From contig NZ_FZOO01000003.1 of the NCBI RefSeq assembly GCF_900188375.1, positions 248,001 through 312,000 of the forward strand: a stretch of DNA of 64,000 bases, in the 5' to 3' direction. A program made the translations under genes and the position numbers. The notes under the pieces were generated by a model. That model worked only from the letters and a program-made list of their open reading frames with translations, was not told the DNA's origin and did no database searches. Below are positions 15,146-41,412 of this stretch, in pieces; position 1 is the stretch's first letter, and the number at the start of each line of letters is the position of its first letter. The DNA is from Geodermatophilus pulveris (GTDB lineage: Bacteria; Actinomycetota; Actinomycetes; Mycobacteriales; Geodermatophilaceae).

Positions 15146-15593
15146 ATGCCGTTGGAGGGCGAGTACGCACCCAGCACGCAGCAGTGGGTCCGCGACCAGG
15201 TCGAGCGCTACGAGGCCACCGGCGGCCGGGAGGCCGCCACGCTGGGCGACACCGGGCTGCCGGTCGTCATCTTCAGCACCCGCGGTGCGCGCTCGGGGAG
15301 GCTGCGCAAGCAGCCGCTCATGCGGGTCGAGCACGAGGGCGCCTACGCCATGGTCGGCTCGCAGGGCGGTGCGCCCACGGACCCCGCCTGGGTGGGCAAC
15401 CTGCGCACGCACCCCGACCAGTAGAAGGACCCCCCTGCCCCCCGCGACTCGCACGCTCGCCGCGGGGCCCTGCAGGGGGGCCAGGGGGCGGGCCGTGGCG
15501 GCCTACCCGCCCTGCGCGGACTACCAGCGCCGGACCGACCGCGCCATCCCGGTGTTCGTGGTCGCGCGCGCGGAGCCGGCCAACCCGGCGTAG
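15146..15593 (+). pseudogene. Deazaflavin-dependent nitroreductase gene, disrupted
   Basis: The first 92 codons (15146-15424) match the F420-binding deazaflavin-dependent nitroreductase (DDN-like) family: RDQVERYEATGGREAATLGD, VVIFSTRGARSGRLRKQPLM, VGSQGGAPTDPAWVGNL, then RTHPDQ and TAG. Normal members continue for about 50-60 residues. The end of the family reappears about 70 bp later as VAAYPPCADYQRRTDR and AIPVFV. A copy of the dispersed hairpin element fills the gap and some 30 codons in between are gone. The truncated product lacks the C-terminal substrate-side region and is probably inactive. Confidence 0.75.
15425..15482 (+). repeat. Hairpin element, copy A (within broken gene)
   Basis: Arms GGACCCCCCTGCCCC and CCCTGCAGGGGGGCC pair around the core GACTCGCACGCTCGCCGCG. 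It begins directly after the premature TAG of the deazaflavin nitroreductase gene. Unlike copies B-E it lacks the GTTCCAGCACGTCACC tail and continues into gene sequence. Confidence 0.7.
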
Positions 15594-15597
15594 CCGG

Positions 15598-16674
15598 TCA
15601 GGGCAGCGCGGCCGCCGCCGCGGGGATGGCGGCGGCGACGTCGTCGGGGAAGGCGGTGAACGGGGTCGCGGCCACCGAGCGCGGCGCGCCCTGCCCCCTC
15701 GACCGTGGGCCCTGCCAGGCCCAGGTGCCCAGCACCCGCCCCGCGTGCACGACGGTCGGCCGGAACACCCCGTTGCCGCCGGGCACGATCCGGTCGGCGA
15801 ACTCGGGCGGGACGGCGCAGCTGCGGTCGGCGTAGCCGAGGACGTACTCGTCGAACCCCGGCAGCAGGTGCAGCCCGGCCGCCTCGCCCCGGTGCTGGGC
15901 CAGCAGGTCCGCGGTCTCCGGCGCCATGAGCAGCTCGCGGCCGTCGACCTGGACGGCGGCCAGCTCCCCGCGGACCGCGGCCACCCCCGCGCGGACGTCG
16001 GTCACCGTCAGCCCCGACCAGCGGGCGAGGTCGGCGACGGTGGCCGGCCCGTGGCCGCGCAGGTAGCGCAGCGCCAGCTCGGCCAGCGCGGCGTCCCGGT
16101 CCAGCCGGCGCGGCGCGGGCACCCACTCGTCGAGCAGCACGAACTGCTGCTCGCCGCCGGCCATCGGGCCGAGGCAGAGGGTGCCGGTCTGCGCCAGGTA
16201 CCACAGCAGGTGGTAGCCGCGCTGCCCGGTGGTGGCGACCCCGCCGTCGGCCACGGCGGCGAGCAGCTCCCTGCGGCCGCACCGCCGTCCCCCGCTCAGC
16301 GCGGCTGTGACCAGGTCGCGGGCCCGCTCGGTGTCGGCCTCGGTGATGCCGAGCACCGCCCGCCGCCGGGCGGCGCCAGCCAGCACCCGCGGCCCGCACA
16401 GCTCCAGCAGCCAGTGCAGGTCCTCGGCGGGCACCAGGTGCAGCGTGCTGCGCATCGGCCAGGAGCGGACCACCTCGCCGGCCCCCAGCGCCGCCTCCAC
16501 CCCGGCCCGGGAGCGCTGCGCCGTCCGCAGCGCCACCGAGGTCAGCGCCCCGGGCAGGTCCTGGCCCTGCACGCAGGTGAGCAGGCGGACCGCCGCGGCG
16601 GCGTCGGCGGCCGGCGGCCCGGCGACCCGCAGCGCCACCAGCCGCAGCAGGGCCTGCTCGGTCGCCGTCGTCAT
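15598..16674 (-). CDS. Winged helix DNA-binding domain protein
   Basis: 358 residues from ATG 16674. It follows the winged-helix DNA-binding domain family (HTH_42, PF06224): LRLVALRVAGPPAADAAAAV, TCVQGQDLPGALTSVALRT, VVRSWPMRSTLHLVPAEDLH, and in the second half YLRGHGPATVADLARWSGLT, GFDEYVLGYADRSC and PGGNGVFRPTVVHAGRVLGT. Some relatives (AlkX/YcaQ type) are DNA glycosylases that unhook crosslinks; the catalytic QxR/QxD motif of that branch is not clearly present, so a DNA-binding or repair role is only inferred. The gene stops just after the broken nitroreductase on the opposite strand. Confidence 0.75.
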   Translation of the reverse strand: MTTATEQALLRLVALRVAGPPAADAAAAVRLLTCVQGQDLPGALTSVALRTAQRSRAGVEAALGAGEVVRSWPMRSTLHLVPAEDLHWLLELCGPRVLAGAARRRAVLGITEADTERARDLVTAALSGGRRCGRRELLAAVADGGVATTGQRGYHLLWYLAQTGTLCLGPMAGGEQQFVLLDEWVPAPRRLDRDAALAELALRYLRGHGPATVADLARWSGLTVTDVRAGVAAVRGELAAVQVDGRELLMAPETADLLAQHRGEAAGLHLLPGFDEYVLGYADRSCAVPPEFADRIVPGGNGVFRPTVVHAGRVLGTWAWQGPRSRGQGAPRSVAATPFTAFPDDVAAAIPAAAAALP

Positions 16675-16694
16675 GCGGGGAGCGTGCCAGCGGG

Positions 16695-17480
16695 CTACGA
16701 CGCCGCCCGGTCGCGGCGCGGCCACGAGCGATCGAGCTGCTCGACCGGCGGCGTCGCCGCGTGCCAGGCGCGGGCGCGCTCGCCGGCCGCCTCGCCCTCG
16801 TCCCCGTGCAGCCGCTCGGCGACGTCGCCCAGCATCTCCTCGCGGCCGTAGAGGACGACGACGTCCCCCGGCTGCACGTGCAGGTCGTCCCCCGGGGCCC
16901 CGATCCACGTCGTGCCCCGTTCGACGCCGAGCACCGTGATGCCCTCCTCGGGCAGGCGCAGTCGCCCGAGCGGACGGGAGGTGATCCAGTCGTCCTCCTC
17001 GACCGGCAGTTGCACCACCCGCCAGATGCCGCGCAGGTGCAGCAGGGCCGCGTAGTCGCGCACCTCCAGGTCGGCGTACCGGCGCAGGAACCGCTCGATG
17101 ACCCGCTGCAGCGCCCGGTCGACGACCCGGTTCCGGGCCAGCCACAGCAGCGCGGCGAGGAGGAGGACGATCACCGCGGCGCGGGCGAACCCCCGCCCCG
17201 TGGTGTCCACCCCGGTGAAGCTCAGGATCAGCGTGCCCAGCACCGAGACGGCTCCCGCGCCGCTGACCAACATCAGCACCATGGCGACCCGCCGGCGGGC
17301 CGGGTGGTTGACCACGGCCTCGGCCTCGGAGGTCGTGAAGCCGGTCCCGGTGAAGGCCGACCGGGCCTGGAACCGCGCGTGGTCCAGGCTCATCCCGGTC
17401 ATGGTCAGGGCGACGGTGGCGACCCGGGTGACCAGCAGCCCGAGCGCGATGACGACGATCAGCGAGACGACGGCGAACAC
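16695..17480 (-). CDS. Membrane protein with TrkA C-terminal domain
   Basis: 261 residues from GTG 17480. Three hydrophobic helices (about 2-28, 61-86, 96-113) with a soluble loop RFQARSAFTGTGFTTSEAE reminiscent of a K+ transporter pore loop, a linker rich in Arg, then a TrkA-C domain at about 155-225 (RPLGRLRLPEEGITVLGVE, GDDLHVQPGDVVVLYGREE). TrkA-C domains bind small ligands such as cyclic di-AMP and gate ion transport. The protein probably takes part in ion or osmotic homeostasis. The start is uncertain; the upstream frame is Pro/Arg-rich shadow sequence. Confidence 0.75.
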   Translation of the reverse strand: MFAVVSLIVVIALGLLVTRVATVALTMTGMSLDHARFQARSAFTGTGFTTSEAEAVVNHPARRRVAMVLMLVSGAGAVSVLGTLILSFTGVDTTGRGFARAAVIVLLLAALLWLARNRVVDRALQRVIERFLRRYADLEVRDYAALLHLRGIWRVVQLPVEEDDWITSRPLGRLRLPEEGITVLGVERGTTWIGAPGDDLHVQPGDVVVLYGREEMLGDVAERLHGDEGEAAGERARAWHAATPPVEQLDRSWPRRDRAAS

Positions 17481-17782
17481 GACAGACGGTCTACCGAGCC
17501 GGGCGGCCCCGCACACCCGGGCGGCAGGCCTCGGCGGGCACCCGGTGACGTCGCCGGCGTCGGTCACGGCCGCGGACAGGGGAGCGGGCGGGACGAGCTC
17601 GTCGGCCGCCGCGGCGGTGGCCCCGGCCGGCCAGAGGGCGGCCCCCGGGCCGGTCAGCAGCCCGGCGAAGAGGGGGACGGCACCGCGCGCCGAGGCGGGT
17701 CGCCCGATGGGTGGAGCACCCGCGGGCACCGTCACGCTGTGTCGTCCGCCCGCCCGCCCGCCCGCGCTGGGAGACTGTCCCC
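17481..17782. other. Divergent intergenic region
   Basis: About 300 bp between the TrkA-C membrane protein and the methyltransferase genes. No ORF has protein-like translation. It must hold promoters for both directions, but I see no clear -10/-35 pair or repeat. Confidence 0.5.
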
Positions 17783-18382
17783 GTGCGGGCAGCGGACTGG
17801 GACGCGCGGTACGCCGCACAGCAGCAGTGGTCGGCCGAGCCGAACGCGCTGGTGGCCGACCTGCTCGCCGACCTGCCGCCCGGGGTGGCGGTCGACCTGG
17901 CGGCGGGGGAGGGGCGGCACGCGCTGTGGCTGGCCGGGCGTGGGTGGCGGGTGACCGCCGTCGACTTCTCCGCGGCCGGCCTGGCGCGCGGCCGCGCCCG
18001 GCCGGGAGCCCACCGGGTGACCTGGGTGACGGCCGACGTCCTGCACTGGGAGGCCGCACCGGGGTCGCCCGACCTGGTGCTGGTGGCCTACCTGCACCTG
18101 CCGGAGGCTGACACCGCGGCGCTGCTGCACCGCGCGGTCGGCTGGCTGCGGCCGGGCGGCCGGCTGCTCGTCCTGGGCCACGACGCCGACAACGTCGCGC
18201 ACGGGGTCGGCGGCCCGCAGGACCCGGCCATCCTGTACAGCACCGGTCGGCTGGCCCCGGTGGCCGCGCTGCTCGACGTCGACCGGCTGGAGCAGGTGCG
18301 CCGCGAGACTCCCGCCGGCACCGCGCTGGACACCCTGCTGTGGGGTCGGCGGCCCGGGGAGTCCGTCGTCCCCCGGCGGTAG
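17783..18382 (+). CDS. Class I SAM-dependent methyltransferase
   Basis: 199 residues from GTG 17783. Motif I is VDLAAGEGRHALWLA (about residues 37-51), followed by WRVTAVDFSAAGLARG, and later LVLVAYLHLPEAD and WLRPGGRLLVLGHDADN. This fits the small tellurite-resistance/TehB-like group of methyltransferases with an unknown small-molecule substrate. Length is typical. The gene is followed after 10 bp by a micro-protein and a DUF1801 gene, and the three may be one transcript. Confidence 0.82.
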   Translation: MRAADWDARYAAQQQWSAEPNALVADLLADLPPGVAVDLAAGEGRHALWLAGRGWRVTAVDFSAAGLARGRARPGAHRVTWVTADVLHWEAAPGSPDLVLVAYLHLPEADTAALLHRAVGWLRPGGRLLVLGHDADNVAHGVGGPQDPAILYSTGRLAPVAALLDVDRLEQVRRETPAGTALDTLLWGRRPGESVVPRR

Positions 18383-18392
18383 CCTGCGCGCC

Positions 18393-18518
18393 GTGATGGG
18401 GATGGGCGGGGCCGGGGGGCGGGACGCGCGACGGCGCCGGCGGCTGGTCGCCACGGTGGTCGTCGTGGCGCTGCTGGTGACCGCCGCGGCGACGGTGCTG
18501 TCGATCGCGCTGGGCTGA
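18393..18518 (+). CDS. 41-aa single-pass membrane micro-protein
   Basis: GTG 18393 (or ATG 18396) opens a 41-residue frame: a Gly-rich start, a strongly basic stretch (RDARRRRRLVA), then one hydrophobic helix (TVVVVALLVTAAATVLSIAL) to the C-terminus. This is a typical N-in single-pass micro-protein with good coding bias. It is wedged between the methyltransferase (10 bp) and DUF1801 (10 bp) genes. No family is recognised. Confidence 0.55.
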   Translation: MMGMGGAGGRDARRRRRLVATVVVVALLVTAAATVLSIALG

Positions 18519-18528
18519 GGAGGCGGGC

Positions 18529-18954
18529 GTGGACGCCGAGGTCGAGGAGTGGCTCACCGCCGCCGGCCCGCGCGAGGCCGAGCTGCGGCGGGTCGACGAG
18601 CTGGTGCGGGCGGCCGCGCCGGGCATCGACCGGCAGCTGGTGACCCTCGGCTCCCGCCGGGCGCTGGGTTACGGCCTGATGCCCTACCGGCCGCGCTCGG
18701 CGAGGGAGACGACCACCTGGCCGCTGGTCCTGCTCGCCGCCCAGCAGCGGCACCTGTCGCTGTACGTCTCCGCCGTCGTCGACGGGGAGTACCTCGCCGA
18801 GGCGCGTGCCGGGCGGCTGGGGCGGGTCTCCTGCGGGAAGAGCTGCATCCGGTTCACCGCGCTGGACCGCGTGGACCGGGCCGAGCTCACCACCCTGCTC
18901 CGGGACGCGGTCGCCGCCACCCGGGACGGCGCGAACGGCGTCGCGGCCGGCTGA
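18529..18954 (+). CDS. DUF1801 domain protein
   Basis: 141 residues from GTG 18529. It has the YdhG/DUF1801 pattern: VEEWLTAAGPREAELRRVDE, an ALGYGLMPYRP segment, then TTWPLVLLAAQQRHLSLYVS and GRVSCGKSCIRFTALDRVD. The family has a small alpha/beta fold related to frataxin-like or iron chaperones; function is not established. Cytoplasmic. It follows the methyltransferase and micro-protein on the same strand. Confidence 0.8.
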   Translation: MDAEVEEWLTAAGPREAELRRVDELVRAAAPGIDRQLVTLGSRRALGYGLMPYRPRSARETTTWPLVLLAAQQRHLSLYVSAVVDGEYLAEARAGRLGRVSCGKSCIRFTALDRVDRAELTTLLRDAVAATRDGANGVAAG

Positions 18955-19093
18955 CCGGCCGGCCCTGCGCAACCTGGGGTTGCTCCAGTGACCTAGGTCC
19001 CTGGTGCGGCCGTTCGGAGGGGGACACCGTGGGGGCCGACGCCGACGCGCGTCCGACCGACGCTCTTCCCCCGCGCACGGAGGCGCCCACCGC

Positions 19094-19312
19094 ATGACGC
19101 TGACCGAGGAACCCGCCGTCGACCCCGCCGTCGACCCCGCCGTCGACCAGGCCGTCGCCCGGCTCGCCGACGAGTTCGGTCCGCGGCTGCGCCCGCAGGT
19201 CATCGGCACCGTGGTCCGCACCTGCCGCCAGGACCTCAGCGGGGTGCCGGCCACGGCGCTGCCCGAGCTCGTCGAGCGCCTCGCCCGGGAGCGGCTGCAG
19301 TCCGTCGCCTGA
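19094..19312 (+). CDS. Three-helix bundle dimerization domain protein
   Basis: 72 residues from ATG 19094. After a repeated acidic VDPAVDPAVDQAV stretch, the sequence ARLADEFGPRLRPQVIGTVV, VRTCRQDLSGVPATALPEL and VERLARERLQ matches small actinobacterial proteins annotated as three-helix bundle dimerization domains. In some proteins this domain is fused to phosphatases (arsenate reductase-type). Here it stands alone, 42 bp before the ABC-F gene. Its role is unknown. Confidence 0.65.
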   Translation: MTLTEEPAVDPAVDPAVDQAVARLADEFGPRLRPQVIGTVVRTCRQDLSGVPATALPELVERLARERLQSVA

Positions 19313-19354
19313 CCGGCGCGGGAATGCGCTTGCCGCCACCCGGACGATGGCGCC

Positions 19355-20974
19355 GTGGGATCGGTCGACGTCACCGGGGTGCGGCACACCCTCCCCGACG
19401 GCCGGGTGCTGCTCGACGGGGTCTCCTTCCGGGTCGGTGAGGGCGCCCGCGCCGCGCTGGTCGGCGAGAACGGGGCCGGCAAGACGACGCTGCTGCGGAT
19501 CATCGCCGGCGACCTGGTGCCCGAGGCCGGCGCCGTCGCCCGCACCGGTGGCCTCGGGGTGATGCGCCAGACCATCGGCTCCGTCCGCGACGGCACCACC
19601 GTGCAGCGCTTCCTCGTCGACCTCTCCCCGCCGGCGGTGCGGGCCGCCTGGCACGCCGTCGACGCCGCCGAGCTCACCCTCATGGAGACCGACGACGACG
19701 ACGCGCAGCTGGCCTACGCCGACGCGCTCGCGCAGTGGGGCGACGCGGGCGGCTACGAGGCCGAGGTCACCTGGGACACGGTCACGGTGGCCGCGCTCGG
19801 CGTGCCCTTCGACCGGTGCAAGTACCGCGAGCTGGCCGGCCTGTCCGGCGGCGAGCAGAAGCGGCTGGCGCTGGAGGCCCTGCTGCGCGGCCCGGACGAG
19901 GTGCTGCTGCTCGACGAGCCGGACAACCACCTGGACGTCCCGGGCAAGCGGTGGCTGGAGGAGCGGCTGCTGGCGACCCGCAAGACGGTGCTGTTCGTCA
20001 GCCACGACCGGGAGCTGCTGGCCCGCGTCGCCGACCGGGTGGTCACCGTCGAGGGCGGGACGGCGTGGGTGCACGGCGGCGGCTTCACCGGCTACGCCGG
20101 GGCCCGCGCGGCCCGGCACGACCGGATGGCCGAGCTGCGCCGCCGCTGGGACGAGGAGCACGCCCGGCTGGTCGAGCTGGTGCGCACCCTGCAGCAGCAG
20201 GCGGCCAACTCCCCGGACATGGCCTCCCGGTACCGGGCCGCGCAGACCCGGCTGGCACGGTTCGAGGCGGCCGGCCCGCCGCCGGACCGCCCGCCGGAGC
20301 AGGAGGTGGCCATGCGGCTGCGCGGCGGGCGCACCGGGGTGCGGGCGGTCACCGCCGAGCGGCTCGAGCTCACCGGGCTGATGCGGCCGTTCGACCTCGA
20401 GCTCTGGTTCGGCGACCGGGTCGGCGTCCTGGGGTCCAACGGCGCGGGCAAGTCGCACTTCCTGCGGCTGCTGGCCGGCCAGGACGTCGCGCACACCGGC
20501 TCGTGGCGGCTGGGCGCCCGCGTCGTCCCCGGCTTCTTCGCCCAGACCCACGCCCACCCGGGCTGGCCGGACCGCACCCCGGTGGACCTGCTGTGGCACG
20601 GCGAGCCCGGCCGGCCGGGCGTCGACCGCGGCCGGGCCATGGCCGCGCTGCGCCGCTACGGGCTGGCCGCCCAGGGCGACCAGCCGTTCGGCACGCTGTC
20701 GGGCGGGCAGCAGGCGCGCTTCCAGGTGCTCGTGCTGGAGCTGTCCGGCGCCACGCTGCTGCTGCTCGACGAGCCCACCGACAACCTCGACGTGCTGTCG
20801 GCGGAGTCGCTGGAGGAGGCGCTGGCCGCCTTCGAGGGCACGGTGCTCGCCGTCACCCACGACCGCTGGTTCGCCCGCTCCTTCGACCGCTTCCTGGTCT
20901 TCGGCGCCGACGGGCGGGTGTACGAGTCGGCCGAGCCGGTGTTCGAGGAGGCCCGGGTGCAGCGCGCCCGCTGA
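19355..20974 (+). CDS. ABC-F family ATP-binding protein
   Basis: 539 residues from GTG 19355, with two ATPase domains and no membrane segments. First domain: Walker A GENGAGKTTLL (about 38-48), signature LSGGEQKRLALEALL, Walker B VLLLDEPDNHLD and switch FVSHD. Second: Walker A GSNGAGKSHFL, signature LSGGQQARFQVLVLE, Walker B LLLLDEPTDNLD and switch AVTHD. The linker between them holds long charged helices (RRRWDEEHARLVELVRTLQQ) as in ABC-F proteins, which bind ribosomes and act in translation or antibiotic protection. It is a self-contained soluble ATPase; which branch it belongs to cannot be told by eye. Confidence 0.88.
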   Translation: MGSVDVTGVRHTLPDGRVLLDGVSFRVGEGARAALVGENGAGKTTLLRIIAGDLVPEAGAVARTGGLGVMRQTIGSVRDGTTVQRFLVDLSPPAVRAAWHAVDAAELTLMETDDDDAQLAYADALAQWGDAGGYEAEVTWDTVTVAALGVPFDRCKYRELAGLSGGEQKRLALEALLRGPDEVLLLDEPDNHLDVPGKRWLEERLLATRKTVLFVSHDRELLARVADRVVTVEGGTAWVHGGGFTGYAGARAARHDRMAELRRRWDEEHARLVELVRTLQQQAANSPDMASRYRAAQTRLARFEAAGPPPDRPPEQEVAMRLRGGRTGVRAVTAERLELTGLMRPFDLELWFGDRVGVLGSNGAGKSHFLRLLAGQDVAHTGSWRLGARVVPGFFAQTHAHPGWPDRTPVDLLWHGEPGRPGVDRGRAMAALRRYGLAAQGDQPFGTLSGGQQARFQVLVLELSGATLLLLDEPTDNLDVLSAESLEEALAAFEGTVLAVTHDRWFARSFDRFLVFGADGRVYESAEPVFEEARVQRAR

Positions 20975-21185
20975 CCGTGTCGGGTCACGCCGGGCATCCC
21001 ACCCTCTCCCCGTCGTCGATCACGGGGTTGTCGCAGGCCCGGTCGGCGTGTCCCCCCGTGTCGCTGGCAACGACCCCATGGTCGACCCGGGATGGGCCCC
21101 CGGGATGGGCAGCACGTCGGGCGGGCCCGCAGCCGGGCGAGCGCGACCCGCACGGGGAGGTCTCCAGCCGCCGGGGCCCGGTCGG

Positions 21186-22487: not shown

Positions 22488-22525
22488 GCCCGGGACACCG
22501 CGTGGGTCTGCTCACACGGTGCGGG

Positions 22526-23707: not shown

Positions 23708-23905
23708 GGGGGATGGGCTCCTCGGGTGGGGTCGTCGGGCTCGACGGGGGACTCCTGCCCCGTCGTGACGACGATCGCTCCAGTCCGGCGCCCGGCGCGG
23801 CGTGTCACCCACGCTGCGTGAGGGGCGGTCGACATCCCGTGGATCGACACCGGTGGCGTTCGGTGACCGCCGTCTCCGGGACGGCCGCGGATACCCCCGT
23901 CCGGA

Positions 23906-23923
23906 GGTCACCAAACGGTCACC
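23906..23923 (+). promoter_or_regulatory. Direct-repeat operator candidate (MtrA-like)
   Basis: GGTCACC occurs twice with 4 bp between (11-bp period) some 75 bp upstream of the M23 peptidase ATG. MtrA response regulators of actinobacteria bind direct repeats of a GTnAC(C) type near cell-wall hydrolase genes. The site, spacing and target gene class agree, but the motif is short and its role is inferred. Confidence 0.35.
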
Positions 23924-23996
23924 TCGTGTTTCCATGGCTCCCGTCCGCTCCCCCGGGCACCGCGCGCGACCCCCGTCCCCTACGGAAGCCAGGTGC

Positions 23997-24941
23997 ATGA
24001 CCCAGCTCCACCACGACCGCCCCCTCGACCTGGAGCGGACGTCCCGGCCCACCCTCCCGACCCGGCGCCCCGAGGAGGCGCGACGGTCGGACACCCCTCC
24101 CGCCGCACGGGCCCGGCTCGCCGGGGTCGCCGACCCCGCCGACCTCACCGGCCGGGCCGAGGCCGCGGCGCGATCCGGCATCACGGGGGGCCCGGCAGCG
24201 GCCGTGACGCCGCTGCTCCGCCGCCTGCGCGGCCGCCGCGCCGTACACGTCGCCGCCGCCCTCGTCGGGGCCAGCGCGCTGGGCCTGGTCACCGCCGGCG
24301 AACCGGTCGCCCGCGCCAGGGAGACCCGTGCCGGGACGGCCGGCCCGGTCAGCGTCGCCCAGGAGCTGGGCCTGCACGCCGGCGCGCCGGCCGCCGTCCC
24401 GGACGCCGAGGCCGCCGCGCGGCTCGGGGAGCTGGCCGCCGACCGCACCGTCCGCGAGGCCGGACGCACCGCCGCGGCGGCGGCGCAGGCCGAGGCCGAC
24501 CGGGTCGCCGCCGAGGCCGACCGGCTCGCCGCCGAGGCCGCCCGGCCCGAGGCCGTCCTGCCCGTCGAGGGCGGCCGGCTCACCAGCGGCTTCGGGTCGC
24601 GCTGGGGCACCCTGCACGCCGGCATCGACCTCGCCGCCCCGATGCGCACCCCGGAGTACGCCGCGATGGACGGCATCGTCCTGGAGGCGGGCCCGGCCAG
24701 CGGCTACGGGCTGGCGGTGTACGTCCGGCACGCCAACGGCGACGTCACCGTCTACGGGCACATGGACGAGGTCCTGGTGACCCCCGGCCAGGTGGTGCGG
24801 GCCGGCGACACCATCGCGCTGCTCGGCAACCGCGGCCAGTCCACCGGCCCGCACCTGCACTTCGAGGTGCGCCGCGGCGGGCCGGGCGGCGAGCCGGTCG
24901 ACCCGGTGGCCTACCTCCGGGAACGCGGCGTCGGGATCTGA
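23997..24941 (+). CDS. M23 family metallopeptidase
   Basis: 314 residues from ATG 23997. An N-terminal cytoplasmic region (1-77) with many Arg/Pro, one hydrophobic segment at about 80-98 (AVHVAAALVGASALGLVTAG), an Ala-rich coiled region (about 140-185), and a C-terminal LytM/M23 domain at about 190-305. The zinc ligands are visible: HAGIDLAAP, VYGHMDEV and STGPHLHFEV. It should cut peptidoglycan crosslinks in the periplasm, anchored by the single helix. A possible MtrA box lies upstream; a hairpin element starts right at its stop. Confidence 0.88.
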   Translation: MTQLHHDRPLDLERTSRPTLPTRRPEEARRSDTPPAARARLAGVADPADLTGRAEAAARSGITGGPAAAVTPLLRRLRGRRAVHVAAALVGASALGLVTAGEPVARARETRAGTAGPVSVAQELGLHAGAPAAVPDAEAAARLGELAADRTVREAGRTAAAAAQAEADRVAAEADRLAAEAARPEAVLPVEGGRLTSGFGSRWGTLHAGIDLAAPMRTPEYAAMDGIVLEAGPASGYGLAVYVRHANGDVTVYGHMDEVLVTPGQVVRAGDTIALLGNRGQSTGPHLHFEVRRGGPGGEPVDPVAYLRERGVGI

Positions 24942-25017
24942 CGGAGGACCCCCCTGGCCCCAGCCACTCGCGAGCTCGCGGCGGGTCCCTGCAGGGGAGC
25001 CGTTCCAGCACGTCACC
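24942..25017 (+). repeat. Hairpin element, copy B
   Basis: Directly follows the stop codon of the M23 gene. Left arm GGACCCCCCTGGCCC, core CGCGAGCTCGCGGCGGG, right arm CCCTGCAGGGGAGCC, then the conserved tail GTTCCAGCACGTCACC. Probably forms a terminator-like hairpin in the RNA. Confidence 0.7.
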
Positions 25018-25069
25018 AGGCCGGGGCGGGGCACACTCGGGGTCCGCAGCGGACAGCAGAGGGGGGTCG

Positions 25070-27038: not shown

Positions 27039-27100
27039 CCCGCCCTGCCCCCGTCGCCACGGCGCGGGACGCCCCGCGGGGCTCCTGCGACCATGGCGGG

Positions 27101-29805: not shown

Positions 29806-31557
29806 GTGACGATCGCACCGGCGCCGATCGTGAGCCGGCCGAGCCCGGTTCACGAGGCGGAGAAGGGCTCGCGGCTCTCGAACCTGCTGCGGACCACCGA
29901 CCACAAGACCATCGGCCTGATGTACCTGGCCACCTCCTTCGCCTGGTTCGTCGTCGGCGGCCTCCTGGCGATGCTGATGCGCGGGGAACTCGGCCGGCCG
30001 GGTCTGCAGTTCCTGTCGCCGGAGCAGTACAACCAGCTGGTCACCATGCACGGCACGATCATGCTGCTGTTCTTCGCGACGCCGCTGTTCTTCGCCTTCG
30101 CCAACCTGATCATGCCGCTGCAGATCGGCGCGCCCGACGTGGCGTTCCCGCGGTTGAACTCGTTCTCCTTCTGGCTGTTCCTGTTCGGCTCCTCGCTGGC
30201 CGTGTCGGGCTTCTTCACCCCGGGTGGTGCCGCCGACTTCGGCTGGTACGCCTACACGCCGCTGTCCACCGCCGCGCACAGCCCCGGCGCCGGTGCCGAC
30301 CTGTGGATCGCCGGTCTGGCGGTCAGCGGCCTGGGCACCATCCTCGGCGCGGTCAACTTCCTGACCACGCTGGCCTGCCTGCGGGCGCCGGGCATGACGC
30401 TGTTCCGGATGCCGATCTTCTGCTGGAACACCCTGGTGACCAGCCTGCTGGTCCTCTTCGCCTTCCCGATCCTCACCGCCGCGCTGTTCGCCCTGCTGGC
30501 CGACCGCCAGCTCGGCGCCCTCGTCTTCGTCGAGGAGAACGGCGGGCCGATGCTGTGGCAGCACCTGTTCTGGTTCTTCGGGCACCCCGAGGTCTACATC
30601 ATCGCGCTGCCGTTCTTCGGCATCATCACCGAGATCATCCCGGTGTTCAGCCGCAAGCCGTTGTTCGGCTACAAGGGCATGGTCTTCGCCACCATCGCCA
30701 TCGGCGGCCTGTCGCTGACGGTGTGGGCGCACCACATGTACGCCACCGGAGCGGTGCTGCTGCCCTTCTTCTCCTTCCTCACCTACCTCATCGCCGTGCC
30801 GACCGGGATCAAGTTCTTCAACTGGATCGGCACGATGTGGCGCGGCCAGCTCACCTTCGAGACGCCGATGCTGTTCGCCATCGGCTTCCTGGTGACCTTC
30901 CTGCTGGGCGGCCTGACCGGCGTCCTGCTGGGCAGCCCGGCGCTGGACTGGCACCTCAACGACAGCTACTTCGTCGTCGCGCACTTCCACTACGTCGTCT
31001 TCGGGACCGTCGTGTTCGCCGCCTACGCGGGCATGTACTTCTGGTTCCCGAAGATGATCGGCCGGATGATGGACGAGCGGATCGGCAAGCTGCACTTCTG
31101 GTTGACCTTCATCGGCTTCCACGGCACCTTCCTCGTGCAGCACTGGCTCGGCGCCGAGGGCATGCCCCGCCGGTACGTCAACTACCTGGGCACCGACGGG
31201 TTCACCACGCTGAACACCGTCTCGACGGTCTTCTCCTTCGTGCTCGGCGCCTCCACCATCCCGTTCCTCTACAACGTGGCCCGGTCGTGGCGGTACGGCC
31301 GGCTGGCCCTGCGTGACGACCCCTGGGGCCACGGCAACTCGCTGGAGTGGGCGACCGGCTCCCCGCCCCCGCGGCACAACTTCACCGAGATCCCGAAGAT
31401 CCGCTCCGAGCGGCCGGCGTTCGAGGCGCACTACCCGCACCTGGTGGAGCGGCTGCAGCGCGAGGCGCACGCCGGCAAGCGGCACGACCCCTACGCCGCC
31501 GAGCTGGGCGCCACCGGGGGCTCCCGGCAGGGTCCGAACGACCCCGACCCCACCTGA
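29806..31557 (+). CDS. ctaD: Cytochrome c oxidase subunit I
   Basis: 583 residues from GTG 29806, the catalytic subunit of the aa3-type terminal oxidase. Twelve membrane helices with all haem and copper ligands in place: [11 protein letters not shown] (haem a His), [11 protein letters not shown] (CuB His and crosslinked Tyr), [10 protein letters not shown] (two CuB His) and [11 protein letters not shown] (haem a3 and a His). The K-channel stretch SLTVWAHHM and the D-channel region near its start are present. The actinobacterial C-terminal cytoplasmic extension is Pro/Arg-rich. Subunits II and III are not next to it. A doubled hairpin element starts at its stop. Confidence 0.95.
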
Positions 31558-31677
31558 GAGAGGACCCCGTCCTCCCCACCCTTCGCAGGCTCAGGGCGGG
31601 ACCCGGGACGGGGCCGGTTCCAGCACGTCACCACGCTCGGCGCGGGACCCTGCGAGGGGGCCGTTCACCACATCACG
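31558..31677 (+). repeat. Hairpin element, copy C, with a second half copy
   Basis: A full copy (31558-31632; arms GGACCCCGTCCTCCCC and GGGACGGGGCCGG, tail TTCCAGCACGTCACC) is followed by a partial one (31633-31677: GCTCGGCGCGGGACCCTGCG, then GGGGGCCGTTCACCACATCA). Directly after the ctaD stop. The arm bases differ from copies A, B, D in both strands together, keeping the stem paired. Confidence 0.7.
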
Positions 31678-31768
31678 CGACGCCCCGTCGGCTCCGGCCG
31701 GCGGGGCGTCGGCGTGCGCGGTCCGCGCCCCGGGCCGGTCGCCGGACGCCGGCCGGGGGTGCGGCACG

Positions 31769-33052: not shown

Positions 33053-33271
33053 TCGGTCCGACGAGTGGGGCCCGGAGGCTCCCGCGAGGAGGACCGGGAT
33101 GGGCTCAGCGCGGCAACTGGCCTCGGTGTAGGGGCCCGCGCCGAGCGTGCGAGGCGTGGGGGGCACCGAGGTCCTTCCGGGCACGTGGCCGCGGTGTCGG
33201 CCGGTAGGCCGACGATGTCGCCGTCCGAACCGTCCAAGACACCGGCGCGGCCGCTGCCTAGCGTCACCGGC

Positions 33272-34923: not shown

Positions 34924-34933
34924 GTCGTCCTCC

Positions 34934-36223
34934 TCAGGCCGTCAGGGTCTCGATGGCGCAGTCCCCGCGGGACAGCGCGAACGCCTCCGCGGGCAGCGCG
35001 GCGACCGCCCGCTCGTGGTGCGCCCGGGCGGCGGCCAGCGCCTCCCGGGGCGTGGCCGGCGCGCAGACCTCGCCGCCGCGGACCAGCTGCACGACCAGCG
35101 TCCGGTCGCCGTCCCGGGGGAGCACCGCGGCGGCGGTGACCACCTCGGCGGTCGCCGTCCCGGAGGCGTCGTGCCGGCGGACGGCGGACTTCCGCCCGCC
35201 CACCGAGTTCTTGCCCTCCGAGCGCTTGGCCACCGGGACGCCGTCCCGCTCGACCAGCTTGTAGACCATCCCCGCCGTCGGGGCGCCGGACCCGGTGACC
35301 AGCGAGGTGCCCACGCCGTACCCGTCGACCGGGGCGGCCATCAGCCCGGCGATCGCGTACTCGTCCAGGTCGCTGGTGACGATGATCCGGGTGCCGGTCG
35401 CGCCGAGGGAGTCCAGCAGCTCGCGGGCGTGCCGGGCCAGCGTCGGCAGGTCCCCGGAGTCCAGCCGGACCGCGCCCAGCTCCGGCCCGGCCACCTCCAC
35501 CGCCGTCCGGATGCCCTGGTCCACGTCGTAGGTGTCCACCAGCAGCGTGGTGCCCACCCCGAGGGCGGCGACCTGCGCGCGGAAGGCGGCGGCCTCGTCG
35601 TCGTGCAGCAGCGTGAAGGCGTGCGCGCTGGTGCCGGTGGTCGGGATGCCGTAGCGCCGGCCGGCCTCCAGGTTGGAGGTGGCGGCGAACCCGGCCAGGT
35701 GCGCGGCCCGGGCGGCGGCGACCGCAGCGTCCTCGTGGGTGCGCCGCGAGCCCATCTCGATGCACGGCCGCTCACAGGCCGCGGACACCATCCGGGCCGC
35801 GGCGGAGGCGATGGCGCTGTCGTGGTTGAGCACCGAGAGCACCAGCGTCTCCAGCAGCACCCCCTCGGCGAAGGGGGCGCGCACGGTGAGCACGGGGGAG
35901 CCGGGGAAGAACGGCTCGCCCTCGGCGTAGCCGTCGACGTCCCCGGTGAAGCGGAACCCGGCCAGCCAGTCCAGCAGCCGGGCGTCGGTGAGGCCCTGCT
36001 CGCGCAGCGCGGCGAGGTCGGCGTCGGTGAACCGGAAGTCCGGCAGCGCCTCCAGCAGCCGGCCGGTGCCGGCGAGCACACCGTAGCGGCGGCCGTGCGG
36101 CAGCCGCCGGGCGAAGACCTCGAACACGCAGTCGCGGTCGGCGGTGCCGTCGGCCAGGGCCGCGGCGACCATGGTCAGCTCGTACCGGTCGGTGAGCAGG
36201 GCGGGGCCGGTCGCCGGGGGCAT
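34934..36223 (-). CDS. pncB: Nicotinate phosphoribosyltransferase
   Basis: 429 residues from ATG 36223. Family marks: LLTDRYELTMVAAALADGTA, EVFARRLPHGRRYGVLAG, the active-site MGSRRTHEDAAVAAARAAHL with the catalytic His, GTSAHAFTLLHDDEAAAFRA, DTYDVDQGIRTAVEVAG, VRLDSGDLPTLARHARELLD, and VGTSLVTGSGAPTAGMVYKL. It joins nicotinate to PRPP, making nicotinate mononucleotide for NAD synthesis. First gene of the pncB-pncA-AraC operon, divergent from clpS with 52 bp between the starts. Confidence 0.93.
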   Translation of the reverse strand: MPPATGPALLTDRYELTMVAAALADGTADRDCVFEVFARRLPHGRRYGVLAGTGRLLEALPDFRFTDADLAALREQGLTDARLLDWLAGFRFTGDVDGYAEGEPFFPGSPVLTVRAPFAEGVLLETLVLSVLNHDSAIASAAARMVSAACERPCIEMGSRRTHEDAAVAAARAAHLAGFAATSNLEAGRRYGIPTTGTSAHAFTLLHDDEAAAFRAQVAALGVGTTLLVDTYDVDQGIRTAVEVAGPELGAVRLDSGDLPTLARHARELLDSLGATGTRIIVTSDLDEYAIAGLMAAPVDGYGVGTSLVTGSGAPTAGMVYKLVERDGVPVAKRSEGKNSVGGRKSAVRRHDASGTATAEVVTAAAVLPRDGDRTLVVQLVRGGEVCAPATPREALAAARAHHERAVAALPAEAFALSRGDCAIETLTA

Positions 36224-36275
36224 GACCTCGCAGCGTAGGCGCGACCGGCGACACCCGGCGTTCTAAGGTGGGTGC

Positions 36276-36572
36276 GTGGCCGGACCACTCGCGCCGACAC
36301 GGACGCCGGAGGAGACCGTCGAGGAGCACGGCGACCTCGACCGCCCGTGGGTCACCATCGTCTGGAACGACCCGGTCAACCTCATGACCTACGTCACCTA
36401 CGTGCTGCAGGAGCTGTTCGGCTACGACGAGCCGACGGCGACCACGCTCATGCTGCAGGTGCACGAGGAGGGCCGGGCGATCGTCAGCTCGGGGCCGCGC
36501 GAGAAGATGGAGCACGACACCAGCCGGCTGCACGCCTACGGGCTGTGGGCCAGCTACCAGCGCGACTCGTGA
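36276..36572 (+). CDS. clpS: ATP-dependent Clp protease adaptor
   Basis: 98 residues from GTG 36276. The ClpS core is clear: [40 protein letters not shown] and [16 protein letters not shown]. The residues N and D in the WNDPVN loop and the hydrophobic pocket (M at TYV...LM) bind N-terminal degron residues (Leu, Phe, Trp, Tyr) and hand such proteins to ClpC/ClpAP. Usual length. Followed 10 bp later by DUF2017, a conserved actinobacterial pairing. Confidence 0.93.
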
Positions 36573-36582
36573 GGGCACCCGC

Positions 36583-37080
36583 GTGAAGCCGTTCCGCCGC
36601 CGGGGCGGTGAGCTGGTCGCCCGGCTCGAGCCGGCCGAGGTGCACGTCGTGGCCCTGCTGCTCGACCAGCTCGAGCAGCTGCTCACCGCCGAGGCCGAGG
36701 ACGTCGCGGGCGACCCGGTCGTCGCCCGGCTGCTGCCCGCCGGGCACCGCAGCGACCCCGAGATCGCCGCCGACTACCGCGAGATGACCGAGTCCGCGCT
36801 GCGCTCCGGCAAGGCCGACGACCTGGCCACGGTCCGCGCCGGCCTGCCGCCCGACGGCGGGACGGTCCGCCTGGACCCCGACCAGGCGGCCGCCTGGCTG
36901 CGCACCACCAACGACCTGCGCCTGGCCCTGGGCACCCGGCTGGACATCCGCGAGGACACCGAGCCGCCGGAGGACCTCGCCGGCGAGGAGGGCCACCAGC
37001 TGGCCGTCTACTACTGGCTCACCGGCCTGCAGGGGTCGCTCGTCGACGCGCTCGCCGCGGGTCGCGCCGGCCGAAGGTGA
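36583..37080 (+). CDS. DUF2017 domain protein
   Basis: 165 residues from GTG 36583, starting 10 bp after clpS. Family signatures: LEPAEVHVVALLLDQLEQLL, VARLLPAGHRSDPEIAADYR, then LRTTNDLRLALGTRLDIRE and YYWLTGLQGSLVDAL. DUF2017 proteins are mostly helical and soluble, and almost always follow clpS in actinobacteria, often with Mec and CysO downstream as here, but their job is not known. The 3' end overlaps the opposite small membrane protein gene by 62 bp. Confidence 0.85.
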   Translation: MKPFRRRGGELVARLEPAEVHVVALLLDQLEQLLTAEAEDVAGDPVVARLLPAGHRSDPEIAADYREMTESALRSGKADDLATVRAGLPPDGGTVRLDPDQAAAWLRTTNDLRLALGTRLDIREDTEPPEDLAGEEGHQLAVYYWLTGLQGSLVDALAAGRAGRR

Positions 37081-37375
37081 GCACGACCAGCGCCGCGAGG
37101 AGCAGGTCGAGCACGAAGAACACCGACACCAGGCCCGGCATCTCCAGGTCCCGCACCAGCGCGCCGACGGCGGAGACCAGCACGACCAGCGACAGGACGG
37201 CGACCAGCAGCAGGGTGAGCACCTGGAGCGAGACGACCAGCACCAGCGACACCCGGTCGCCGCCGACGGCGCGGCGGTACCAGCGGGCGCGCCTGCGGGT
37301 CCCCCCCATGCCCAGCAGCAGCGCCGGCAGCGCCACGGCGAGCACCCCGGCGACCATGAGCAGCTCCACCACCAC
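37019..37375 (-). CDS. Small membrane protein, 118 aa
   Basis: From GTG 37375: three hydrophobic helices (about 2-22 VVELLMVAGVLAVALPALLL, 42-70 VSLVLVVSLQVLTLLLVAVL, 78-100 LVSVFFVLDLLLAALVVL) separated by a basic loop (GTRRRARWYRRAVGG) and a basic tail (RRDPRRARRRATPAGR). Inner-membrane protein with unknown role. It overlaps the 3' end of DUF2017 by 62 bp in the opposite direction and starts upstream of Mec in a divergent arrangement. Confidence 0.6.
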   Translation of the reverse strand: MVVELLMVAGVLAVALPALLLGMGGTRRRARWYRRAVGGDRVSLVLVVSLQVLTLLLVAVLSLVVLVSAVGALVRDLEMPGLVSVFFVLDLLLAALVVLTFGRRDPRRARRRATPAGR

Positions 37376-37452
37376 GACACGTCACCGTAACCTCCGGGCC
37401 ATTGCCGGGAGCCTGCGAGGTGGGCGGTGCGGGATCTCCTAGACTCGGCTGC

Positions 37453-37926
37453 GTGCTGCGCATCGACCGCGCGACCTACGACGCCATCGTGGCCCACGCC
37501 CGGGAGGACCACCCGGACGAGGCCTGTGGCGTCGTCGCCGGCCCCGAGGGCAGCGACCGCCCCGAGCGGTTCATCCCGATGCTGAACGCCGCGCGGTCGC
37601 CCACGTTCTACGAGTTCGACTCCGCGGACCTGCTCCGGCTGTACCGGGAGATGGACGACCGGGACGAGGAGCCGGTGGTGGTGTACCACTCGCACACCGC
37701 GACCGAGGCCTACCCGTCGCGCACCGACATCGGCCTGGCCGCCGAGCCGAACGCGCACTACGTGCTTGTCTCCACCCGGCACCACGGGGAGCAGACCGGC
37801 CTGGCCGGTGACGAGGTCGAGTTCCGCAGCTTCCGGATCGTCGACGGCGTCGTCACCGAGGAGGACGTCGAGGTCGTCGAGTCCTACCTGTTCGGCCACT
37901 CGCCGACCACCGTCGTCTACGACTGA
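37453..37926 (+). CDS. mec: Mec-type JAMM metalloprotease (CysO-cysteine peptidase)
   Basis: 157 residues from GTG 37453. Complete JAMM motif: E23 (HPDEACGVV) and H79-x-H81-x7-S89-x2-D92 (VVYHSHTATEAYPSRTDIG), binding one zinc. In mycobacteria Mec releases cysteine from the CysO-cysteine adduct made by CysM. The cysO gene follows 182 bp later (with a hairpin element between) and cysM after that, so the pathway is complete here. Length is typical. Confidence 0.92.
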   Translation: MLRIDRATYDAIVAHAREDHPDEACGVVAGPEGSDRPERFIPMLNAARSPTFYEFDSADLLRLYREMDDRDEEPVVVYHSHTATEAYPSRTDIGLAAEPNAHYVLVSTRHHGEQTGLAGDEVEFRSFRIVDGVVTEEDVEVVESYLFGHSPTTVVYD

Positions 37927-38002
37927 AGAAGGACCCCGCTGCCCCCCACCGCTCGCACGCTCGCGGCGGGTCCCTGCAGCGGGGCCGTTCCAGCACGTCA
38001 CC
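37927..38002 (+). repeat. Hairpin element, copy D
   Basis: Immediately after the mec stop. Arms GGACCCCGCTGCCCC and CCTGCAGCGGGGCC pair; core CTCGCACGCTCGCGGCGGG; tail GTTCCAGCACGTCACC. The arm change CCCCGCTG/CAGCGGGG keeps pairing relative to copies A and B. It separates mec from cysO, so it may weaken read-through within the pathway. Confidence 0.7.
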
Positions 38003-38107
38003 ATCGGAATGAGCCGGCGGCCTGCGGGCGTTGGCCCGACCAGACGCACGTCCGCTGCGCCGTCGCGCGGCACACCCCACCGACCCCCTGAGGAGAACGC
38101 ACACGCC

Positions 38108-39371
<1,264 letters not shown>

Positions 39372-39451
39372 GCCCGGGGGCGCGACGCCGGTCTCCCCGG
39401 CCCCCCGGTTAGCCTGACCGGCGCCGGAGGGACGACACAGGGGAGCGGCAG

Positions 39452-40192
39452 GTGGAGCTGACGGTGGTCGGCTGCTCGGGCAGCGGCCCGGGCCCGGCGT
39501 CCCCGGCGTCCTGCTACCTGGTCGAGCACGACGGCTTCCGCGTGCTCCTCGACCTGGGCAACGGCGCGTTCGGGACGCTGCAGGCCCTCGCCGACCCGGT
39601 CACCGTCGACGCGCTGTACCTCACCCACCTGCACGCGGACCACTGCCTCGACGTGGCCCCGTTCGTCGTCTGGCACCGCTACTCGGGGCGCTCCCGCGGG
39701 CGGCCGGTGCCGCTGTACGCGCCGGCCGGCGCCGACCGGCGGCTGGCCTCGGCCTACTACGGGGACGGCGCGCCGCTGGAGGACGTCTTCGACTTCACCG
39801 TCCTCACCGGGGAGCCGTTCGACCTGGGGCCCTTCGCCGTGCGGACGGCGCGCACCGCGCACCCGGTCGAGTGCCACGCCGTGCGGCTGACCGCCGGCGG
39901 CCGGTCGCTGGTCTACACCGGTGACACCGGCGCCAGCGCCGCCGTGGTCGACCTCGCCCGCGGTGCCGACGTGCTGCTCGCCGAGGCCGCGCACCCCGAC
40001 GTCCCCGGCCTGCCCGGCGGCCTGCACCTCACCGGGCGGCAGGCCGGCGAGCACGCCGCCGCGGCCGGGGTCGGCCGGCTGCTGCTCACCCACGTGCCGC
40101 CGTGGGTCGACGCCGAGGGGCAGCTGGCGTCCGCGCGGGAGGTGTTCCCCGGCGCGGAGCTGGTCGAGCCCTGCGCCACGTACGCCGTCTGA
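39452..40192 (+). CDS. MBL fold metallohydrolase (RNase Z-like)
   Basis: 246 residues from GTG 39452. Metal-binding motif LTHLHADHCLDVAP (HxHxDH), ECHAVRLTAGG, YTGDTGASAAVVDLARGADV and LTHVPPWVDAEG give the full set of ligands. The opening LTVVGCSGSGPGPASPASCY resembles RNase Z/arylsulfatase-like (MBL phosphodiesterase) members. In mycobacteria a similar gene follows cysM and murI/rph, so its place here is conserved. Substrate unknown. Confidence 0.88.
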   Translation: MELTVVGCSGSGPGPASPASCYLVEHDGFRVLLDLGNGAFGTLQALADPVTVDALYLTHLHADHCLDVAPFVVWHRYSGRSRGRPVPLYAPAGADRRLASAYYGDGAPLEDVFDFTVLTGEPFDLGPFAVRTARTAHPVECHAVRLTAGGRSLVYTGDTGASAAVVDLARGADVLLAEAAHPDVPGLPGGLHLTGRQAGEHAAAAGVGRLLLTHVPPWVDAEGQLASAREVFPGAELVEPCATYAV

Positions 40193-40267
40193 CGGAGGAC
40201 CCTCCTGCCCCCGTCACTCGCAGGCTCGGGACGGGACGCTGGAGGAGGGCCGGTCCGGCACGTCACC
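40193..40267 (+). repeat. Hairpin element, copy E
   Basis: Immediately after the MBL gene stop. Arms GGACCCTCCTGCCCC and CTGGAGGAGGGCC (change CCCTCC/GGAGGG keeps pairing), core CACTCGCAGGCTCGGGACGG, tail GGTCCGGCACGTCACC. Oriented with the gene it follows. Confidence 0.7.
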
Positions 40268-40311
40268 GCACCCCTCTTGCCCGGCGCGGCTCGGCCGGGC
40301 ACCGTGGCCCG

Positions 40312-41268
40312 GTGGTCGACGACGAACGGGACGGCGTCCGGCTGACCAGCCTCGACGCGCCGCTGGGCGACGGGCTCGGGGTGACCAAGGGCGACCTGGT
40401 CGACCACCTCGACGCCAACGCCTCCCGGCTGGTGCCGCAGCTGGCCGGCCGGCCGCTGTCGGTCAAGCGGGTCCGGCCGGGCCAGGAGCCGTTCATGCAG
40501 CGCAACGTCGCCAGGGGCGCGCCGGAGTGGGTGCGCACGGTGCCGGTCTGGTCCCACGGCGCGCACCGCGAGGTGCACCAGGTGCTCTGCGACGACCGCC
40601 GCACGCTGCTGTGGCTGGCCAACCAGCGGGCTGTCGAGTTCCACGTGCCCTTCTCCCTCGCCGGCGCCGAGACCGAGCCGACCGGCATCGTGCTCGACCT
40701 CGACCCGCCGGAGGGCGCCGACTTCGACGTGGTCGTGCGGGCGGCGGACCTGGTCCGGCGGGCGCTGGCCGACGCCGGGCTCGCCGGGGCGGTGAAGACC
40801 AGCGGGTCCAAGGGGGTGCACGTCGTCGTCCCGGTGCGCGGAGTCGGGCCCGAGGACGCCGCCGCCGCGACCCGCGCGCTGGCCGCCCGCGCCGCCGCCC
40901 TCGACCCGGACCTGGCCACCACCGCCTACATCCGGGAGGACCGGCACGGCCGGGTGTTCCTCGACTCCACCCGCTCGGGCTCCGCCACCATCGTGGCCGC
41001 CTACAGCCCGCGGATCCGCCCCGGCCTGCCCGTCTCCGCGCCGGTCGCCTGGGCTGACCTGCCCTCGGTGCGGCCCGGGGACGTGACCGTCCGGACGGCG
41101 CCGGAGCGGCTGGGGGACGGCGACCCGTGGACGGCGCTGCTGCCCGCCCGGCAGGAGCTGCCGGCCGACCTGGTCGCCGAGGGCCACACCATCCCGGTGG
41201 CCCGCGTGCAGGCGATGCACGAGGGCCGCCGCCGGGCCCGGGCCCGCCGTGCGGAGGCCGGGGACTGA
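40312..41268 (+). CDS. Stand-alone LigD-type polymerase (NHEJ primase-polymerase)
   Basis: 318 residues from GTG 40312. It has the LigD polymerase domain motifs: EPFMQRNVARGAPEW, HREVHQVLCDDRRTLLWLAN, the catalytic IVLDLDPPEGADF (two Asp), TSGSKGVHVVVPV and YIREDRHGRVFLDSTR. In mycobacterial LigD this domain is fused to a ligase; here it is alone, as in many actinobacteria. It adds nucleotides during non-homologous end joining. No ku or ligase gene lies nearby. The 5' end overlaps no gene; a hairpin element precedes it and another follows. Confidence 0.9.
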   Translation: MVDDERDGVRLTSLDAPLGDGLGVTKGDLVDHLDANASRLVPQLAGRPLSVKRVRPGQEPFMQRNVARGAPEWVRTVPVWSHGAHREVHQVLCDDRRTLLWLANQRAVEFHVPFSLAGAETEPTGIVLDLDPPEGADFDVVVRAADLVRRALADAGLAGAVKTSGSKGVHVVVPVRGVGPEDAAAATRALAARAAALDPDLATTAYIREDRHGRVFLDSTRSGSATIVAAYSPRIRPGLPVSAPVAWADLPSVRPGDVTVRTAPERLGDGDPWTALLPARQELPADLVAEGHTIPVARVQAMHEGRRRARARRAEAGD

Positions 41269-41412
41269 GAGAGGACCACCCTTCCCCCCACGCCTCGCAC
41301 GCTCCCTGGTGCCCGGTGAGCTGCTCGACCGCGACGACGGGCCGGCCGGCTGTGCGCCGAGGTCTCGCCGGACCCCGGCGAGGTGGTGCTCGGTCCCTGG
41401 GAGGAGGGCCGG
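41269..41412 (+). repeat. Hairpin element, copy F, interrupted
   Basis: Begins after the polymerase gene stop with GAGAGGACCACCCTTCCCCC and CGCCTCGCACGCTCC, then about 80 bp of unrelated sequence, then the right arm GGTCCCTGGGAGGAGGGCCG at about 41391-41410. It seems a degenerate or split copy. The intervening 80 bp and 41413-41464 show no gene. Confidence 0.55.

Follow-up and report, generated by a model that had tools for sequence, protein, structure and literature searches.

Why do hairpins of one family recur right behind stop codons in Geodermatophilus, and are they RNA structures that serve the genes they follow or DNA elements that have moved there? The question is raised by a 64,000-nucleotide (nt) stretch of Geodermatophilus pulveris DNA (NCBI RefSeq assembly GCF_900188375.1, contig NZ_FZOO01000003.1, positions 248,001 to 312,000; hereafter the window), in which genes were called with a simple codon-usage script of our own. 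We report that the hairpin family, first proposed in an earlier note on this DNA, is real and is confirmed in the window, and that its members are probably all copies of a single palindromic DNA repeat of the Geodermatophilaceae that is mobile, non-autonomous and present in high copy number, an unusual element of the kind known as repetitive extragenic palindromes (REPs) and miniature inverted-repeat transposable elements (MITEs). Copy number, restriction to the family (among the genomes searched), presence/absence turnover, nesting and gene disruption are demonstrated by sequence comparison, which also shows that the left end is anchored at stop codons, that the right end varies and that the filled allele lacks target DNA behind the stop.

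The window contains five full copies (A-E), one half copy (F) and one copy on the minus strand (G). All six places at which a shared hairpin just behind a plus-strand stop codon had been listed do hold the element, in the case of F as its 5' half. Copy A (15415..15490, plus strand), which is without the tail described below, has an in-frame TAG at 15422-15424 and the hexamer AGGACC at 15426. The tailed copies on the same strand are B (24934..25018; TGA stop 24939-24941, AGGACC at 24945), C (31550..31632; TGA stop 31555-31557, AGGACC at 31561) and D (37919..38002; TGA stop 37924-37926, AGGACC at 37930), the last being the top scorer with 96.2 bits, while the tail is degraded in E (40185..40267; TGA stop 40190-40192, AGGACC at 40196). 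In F (41261..41304, plus strand) AGGACC is at 41272, 3 nt past the stop of a gene for a LigD primase-polymerase, and a 3'-half-like stretch lies beyond it at about 41392-41415 (by eye). Relative to the stop of the called plus-strand gene AGGACC thus starts at 1 nt in A and at 3 nt in B-F. Covariance-model scores are 71-96 bits for A-E and 29.4 bits for F (E 0.0046; model E-values are rough), and a 3'-half fragment of a separate copy (31632..31670, plus strand; model positions 46-85, E 1.2e-4) abuts copy C. Copy G (33111..33186, minus strand), which the earlier note had overlooked, lies away from any stop codon.

The consensus of 48 copies reads CTGA N RR AGGACC, a variable outer arm, CCCC, a variable inner arm and CTCGCANGCTC, followed by a 3' half in which the inner arm returns, then GGG N CCCTG, the outer arm again and GGCC. 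Written with its joint, the anatomy is T | GA(N) RR AGGACC - outer arm - CCCC - inner arm - CTCGCANGCTC loop - returning arms - GGCC - optional 16-nt tail, that is, an element of about 65-85 bp with two stacked stems, whose ends form the outer stem and hence terminal inverted repeats. The 16-nt tail is exact in B, C and D, has two mismatches in E, and was not found in A or F when up to three mismatches were allowed; a recognisable tail (at least 11/16 identical) follows GGCC in 41 of 118 readable copies. The proposed core, too, is absent in its exact form from some copies (A and D contain CTCGCACGCTCGC, whereas GCTCGCGGCGGG occurs in B and D). At Rfam gathering scores a tRNA is the only match in the window, and the copies there match no Rfam family.

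In the genome that carries the window BLAST located 43 places and the model matched at least 151 times (with 150 candidates scored); the covariance model gave 56 hits in 864 kb, which extrapolates to about 280 per genome; the repeat thus exceeds the 100 copies set for a high-copy extragenic palindrome. It is present in 25/25 genomes of the genus (at least 22 to at least 118 matches each) and in 101/112 genomes of the family Geodermatophilaceae, where at most the best 43 candidates were scored per genome, and no match was obtained in 16 genomes from other families of the same order. Likewise, among 80 named loci (up to 13 kb, fetched via a neighbouring protein) matches at E ≤0.01 occur only in Geodermatophilaceae (Geodermatophilus, Blastococcus, Modestobacter and Trujillonella), with none in the Catellatospora, Saccharothrix, Actinomadura, Micromonospora, Nonomuraea and other loci of that set. 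Two of the 11 family genomes without a match (99-100% complete) belong to repeat-bearing genera, and four further family genomes have just 2-13 matches in assemblies that are at least 96% complete. Genomes G042, G070, G048 and G058, with 0, 0, 4 and 2 matches where most genomes of the same genera have at least 43, are lineages in which the expansion either was lost or did not take place. One core variant, the only one sought, gave no exact match in viral contigs as a possible phage source, and no description of this repeat was found in the literature searched, which has most subscription journals outside it.

Placement was studied in pieces of the same genome (G000) and of a close relative (G013), about a fifth of each, where 128 hits gave 126 readable copies (two without a left end were dropped; copies common to both species are counted twice). 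Of these, 106 lie behind a same-strand stop and 15 behind the start of an opposite-strand gene (121 outside genes in all), and 5 are inside called genes. AGGACC is found at -1 to +4 nt from the same-strand stop in 98/106 copies (exactly +3 in 64), and stop-adjacent placement is seen in both species (42/54 in G000, 56/72 in G013). The left tags of the 64 copies at +3 are CTGA (55), GTGA (5), TTGA (2), ATGA (1) and CTAG (1). Where CTGA-NNN precedes a copy, it is a true stop in 55 of 57 cases, to be compared with a background in the same DNA of 835 CTGA at stops and 729 non-stop intergenic CTGA (53% stops; p 4e-13), so that stop codons clearly beat other CTGA sites; the claimed location at stop codons is strongly supported, and the random scatter that would have spoken against it is not what we see. 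The spacing depends on the stop, with CTGA mostly at +3 (55; 5 at 0), GTGA at 0 (8; 5 at +3; p 9e-5) and TAG mostly at +1 or +4, registers which imply that the G of the stop lies 5 or 2 nt before AGGACC. Among the 15 copies behind opposite-strand starts, 10 are 12-20 nt from the start and 9 of these abut a TANNNT box placed 6-8 nt before the start (by eye), which we take to resemble the -10 box of a leaderless promoter.

The earlier note had also stated that no minus-strand gene in the window has a copy. This holds for stop codons (0/32 minus- vs 6/43 plus-strand called genes) and fails for the strand as such, given copy G. Per-gene rates on the plus and minus strands are unequal also in C14 (13/254 vs 2/131) and, in G013, in samples h2 (4/117 vs 18/258) and h3 (8/41 vs 1/41), and similar in C10 (14/243 vs 9/131) and G013 h1 (18/250 vs 10/127); since minus-strand genes outside the window carry copies, e.g. 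the 9/131 in C10, the strand pattern is local.

Comparison of filled and empty alleles provides insight into the joints. Where one of two orthologs with the same protein end has a copy, the stop type differs in 11/39 pairs vs 31/430 pairs without a copy (p 2e-4), so that part of the stop is probably supplied by the element. Another 11 one-sided pairs have different protein ends; among these, the protein of the filled allele is the shorter one in 6, the longer one in 2 and merely diverged in 3. The right end could be read in 46 of the 50 one-sided pairs and the right flank aligned in 41; in these 41, the median distance from GGCC to the point where homology restarts is 16 nt, and the filled allele lacks a median of 17 nt (quartiles 6, 36) that the empty allele contains. 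The left joint thus falls at the stop codon, apparently just past the T, whereas the position of the right joint varies, and insertion goes with loss of target DNA instead of its duplication.

G013, the closest relative found (96% identity in the cytochrome oxidase gene, 90 and 92% for two 3-kb probes), also gives a measure of turnover. For 55 G000 copies at matching G013 sites 26 are shared, 25 not detected and 4 unresolved, and for 73 G013 copies at matching G000 sites the corresponding numbers are 24, 46 and 3, the undetected fractions being upper bounds for reasons given below. Among 668 ortholog pairs a copy is found at the stop in 41 and 55, and in both species in 20 (3.4 expected); 8 of these 20 doubly filled ends differ at no more than one of 8 arm positions and 12 at 2 to 4. 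In 4 of 26 shared slots the two copies have opposite orientations, and copies were found nested within older copies. At the site of copy D, where the JAB-family gene ahead of it keeps the same final residues across 46 named loci, 29 loci have a copy behind the stop and 17 do not (nhmmer), with at least five arm types, while nearby gene ends have copies in 11/49, 12/48 or none (of 45, 46, 47 and 49) of the loci. Finally, copy A interrupts an F420H(2)-dependent quinone reductase gene (window 15146-15500) that is intact in G013: the protein in the window covers positions 1-76 of a 130-position model and ends at the TAG beside copy A, the G013 protein covers 1-129, and beyond the copy the DNA is again homologous to the G013 gene. 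By turnover, differing slot occupants, nesting and gene truncation we conclude from the aligned genomes that the repeat is mobile, and the suggestion of spread by copying is strongly supported.

With respect to the stems, variable outer-arm positions are complementary in 249/276 cases, compared with 134.5 +/- 8.0 when arms are swapped between copies (46 copies, 0/10,000 swaps as high; arms were read from fixed sequence anchors, and two of 48 aligned copies without a readable head were dropped), and inner-arm positions in 116/138 compared with 82 +/- 4. Double-changed cells number 124 vs 33.5 in shuffles (0/500), in a model alignment that is itself fitted to the structure. The arms do change together, as had been claimed, and the arms in the second species also pair (two genomes pooled) instead of varying independently. 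Chance GC-rich stem-loops or an assembly artefact would agree with the folding energies of single copies, where six of seven stretches fold no better than shuffles and only D beats all of its own; this measure is uninformative at 76% GC. Recurrence throughout the family, with matching gene ends occupied in named assemblies that are independent of each other, together with covariation far above shuffles, refutes this explanation, the probability of which we regard as practically nil.

Covariation is commonly taken as a sign of RNA structure, and the earlier note had held that the RNA stem rather than the DNA sequence is conserved. If so, G-U pairs should be tolerated above A-C mismatches, and we observed the opposite: of 915 pair cells 851 are Watson-Crick, 3 are G-U and 26 are A-C, and without one inner pair that varies between subfamilies there are 2 G-U vs 15 A-C (p 0.002). 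The G-U share is 3/854 standard pairs in the repeat vs 12/413 in 20 tRNAs of the same DNA (Fisher p 2e-4; one doubtful 91-nt tRNA-Pro call omitted), and in the outer stems of two genomes with at most two mismatches the direction is the same, 7 G-U and 13 A-C, without reaching significance (p 0.26). Covariation is hence present and the G-U tolerance expected of a functional RNA is lacking, so the claim for the RNA stem is not supported. The near-absence of G-U pairs means that the covariation may come from DNA templating; it points to templating or copying of palindromes at the DNA level, though the RNA may have an effect as well.

A functional hairpin of the 3' untranslated region (UTR), acting as a translation brake at the stop or as protection of the mRNA 3' end, selected at gene ends and mobile only secondarily, is nevertheless a possible, if less likely, account. 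Placement next to stops is far above chance, as this account would have it, a copy is retained in many species at certain orthologous ends (29/46 at the D site), and REPs within 15 nt of the stop in E. coli are reported to stall ribosomes (PMC12306157). Against it are the scarcity of G-U pairs, the fact that about half of the copies have no detected counterpart in the close relative, the commonness of copy-free orthologous ends, the filling of one slot by different or opposite-facing copies, and a separate class of copies that abuts promoter-like boxes. Intrinsic transcription terminators duplicated across the genome are unlikely. They too would show a strong GC hairpin behind the stop, and 37/106 stop-following copies precede a convergent gene, but the remaining 69 sit between tandem genes and no U-tract was seen after the stem (by eye), its place being taken by GTTCCAGCAC or unrelated GC-rich DNA. 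Copy rates at convergent and tandem ends are 0.107 and 0.061 for gaps of 20-99 and 0.091 and 0.161 for gaps ≥100 (gap lengths include the copy). Other strong hairpins, for which the background inside genes is 18/493, lean mildly towards termination at convergent ends (0.17 with copies vs 0.27 without) and the other way at tandem ends (0.16 vs 0.10). With downstream hairpin rates broadly similar and native-looking hairpins persisting beyond several copies, the earlier suggestion of terminators was not borne out.

A third alternative, classical REPs mobilised by REP-associated tyrosine transposases (RAYTs, derived from IS200/IS605), would account for the high copy number, the palindrome, the mostly extragenic location near stops and the GTAG at some left ends. 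The main left tag is CTGA and not GTAG, the length is about twice the 20-40 bp stated for REPs (PMC3733652), and a search for the Y1 transposase (PF01797) was negative in 26/26 genus genomes and positive in 5/14 known genomes used as control; because no such transposase was found we reject membership of this class, which is quite improbable. A reverse transcriptase as obligatory mobiliser is also rejected: it occurs in 13/26 genus genomes and is absent from the genome with the window and from 12 other repeat-bearing genomes of the genus. Ku is encoded in 26/26 genus genomes, and joints that replace target DNA are consistent with end joining or template switching.

Several observations weigh against a mobile DNA repeat that carries part of the stop. 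Neither a Y1 transposase nor, in the genome of the window, a reverse transcriptase was found, and no full-length or autonomous parent was noticed in 864 kb of that genome, which was not scanned systematically for paired ends. Target-site duplications were not seen in the 41 filled/empty pairs, which gave one negative value (-2). The stop type is unchanged in 28/39 one-sided pairs, in at least 2 of the 11 pairs that differ in stop type the allele counted as empty holds a remnant (by eye), two of the 11 filled proteins with different ends are longer, and the gene ends rest on our simple caller. The stop-codon pattern may be sharpened by selection that removes insertions at other places. At least 5/25 and at least 5/46 of the "empty" sites contain a copy that is shrunken, nested or divergent (by eye), which makes the turnover figures upper bounds and part of the turnover loss. 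Also, nine family genomes (74-98% complete), from three other genera, are without the repeat.

We still consider a mobile palindromic repeat the likely explanation and envisage its movement as follows. A new copy would attach directly after the T with which a stop codon begins, or after the T/TA of a -10 box, the first bases of the element would restore a stop, and the copy would replace a few to tens of nt downstream via DNA-level copying or end-joining, arm complementarity being kept by templating in a DNA hairpin and not by RNA selection. Once transcribed, the strong hairpin near the stop would probably act, if it has any effect, as a brake on terminating ribosomes, which by analogy with the E. 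coli REPs appears the likeliest effect. More speculatively, and in our view doubtfully, stop codons may be true targets: the element would insert at points of translation termination (or into -10 boxes that have been opened), join behind the T and supply the rest of the stop, with the arms rebuilt as perfect palindromes in each round along a route without known transposase or reverse transcriptase, e.g. hairpin DNA captured by Ku/LigD end joining.

Among known systems the repeat shares with REPs and bacterial interspersed mosaic elements (BIMEs) that it is high-copy, extragenic, palindromic and mobile, and with the CGTC-tagged REPs that no dedicated transposase is known (PMC3733652 and PMC2817692); part of the E. 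coli REPs similarly lie within 15 nt of the stop (PMC12306157). As to the tetranucleotide tags of REPs, GTAG is read at some left ends of the present repeat, and CGTC at tail positions 10-13 in 17/41 copies with a good tail. It differs from REPs in its length of about 65-85 bp, its two stacked stems, its left end on the stop codon itself and its main tag CTGA, and the GTAG and CGTC REP families are reported mainly from Proteobacteria, unlike this repeat of Geodermatophilaceae. MITEs and other small palindromic elements of bacteria (RUP, Correia elements, RPE; PMC2229807) are also small, non-autonomous, palindromic and mostly intergenic, sometimes intragenic; here, unlike in MITEs, no target-site duplication was seen, one end is precise and the other variable, and no parent insertion sequence was found, no systematic scan having been made. 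Rho-independent terminators are likewise GC-rich hairpins downstream of genes, and differ in that the repeat has no U-tract (by eye), is mobile, often lies between tandem genes and leaves a native-looking hairpin beyond several copies. The mycobacterial interspersed repetitive units (MIRUs) are actinobacterial intergenic repeats said to insert at DTGA stops, at overlapping stop and start codons. The resemblance to these, taken from their general description, is that of an actinobacterial intergenic repeat at stop codons between genes, whereas the present repeat is a hairpin that prefers CTGA (55/64 copies at +3, and thus not DTGA) and has lost flanking DNA.

Some further observations concern the surroundings of the copies. 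The copy at window 33111-33186 (minus strand) shares its left flank with copies at L051:1379-1454 (plus strand) and G013 h1 371596; CACGTGCCCGGA is common to two of the three, and the window and G013 copies share a longer flank, so the duplicated unit seems to have extended beyond the repeat. The gene for the LigD primase-polymerase domain, a non-homologous end joining (NHEJ) function, at window 40312-41268 comes after copy E and ends at half copy F. A GGAAT-N18/19-GTT motif, which resembles the SigR/SigH stress promoter, is found at window about 38000-38040, upstream of genes for a ThiS-like protein and a pyridoxal phosphate (PLP) enzyme (38108-39371), and in many of the 46 loci, where it precedes the JAB / ThiS / PLP-dependent enzyme set. 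Another family of palindromic repeats (GATCAGCTSAGCTGGTC ... GGGTCC-GGCTCACC...GGTGAGCC-GGACCC) is intergenic and was seen at L041:6921-7060 (G000:C14 about 206921-207060) and in G013, there at about 15 places by manual count, including the slot of the G000 repeat copy at C14 195170. In the pieces of DNA examined closely BLAST gave 6 matches to it, some of them to both strands of one place.

For gene-dense genomes, landing on a stop codon and rebuilding it would be a harmless route of insertion, and this would explain how hundreds of copies are tolerated. The repeat is also a warning, since co-changing arms are usually taken as proof of selection on RNA and here the G-U intermediates are nearly missing. 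Finally, near-empty relatives beside 101/112 positive genomes make it possible to hunt for the mobiliser by gene content within the family.

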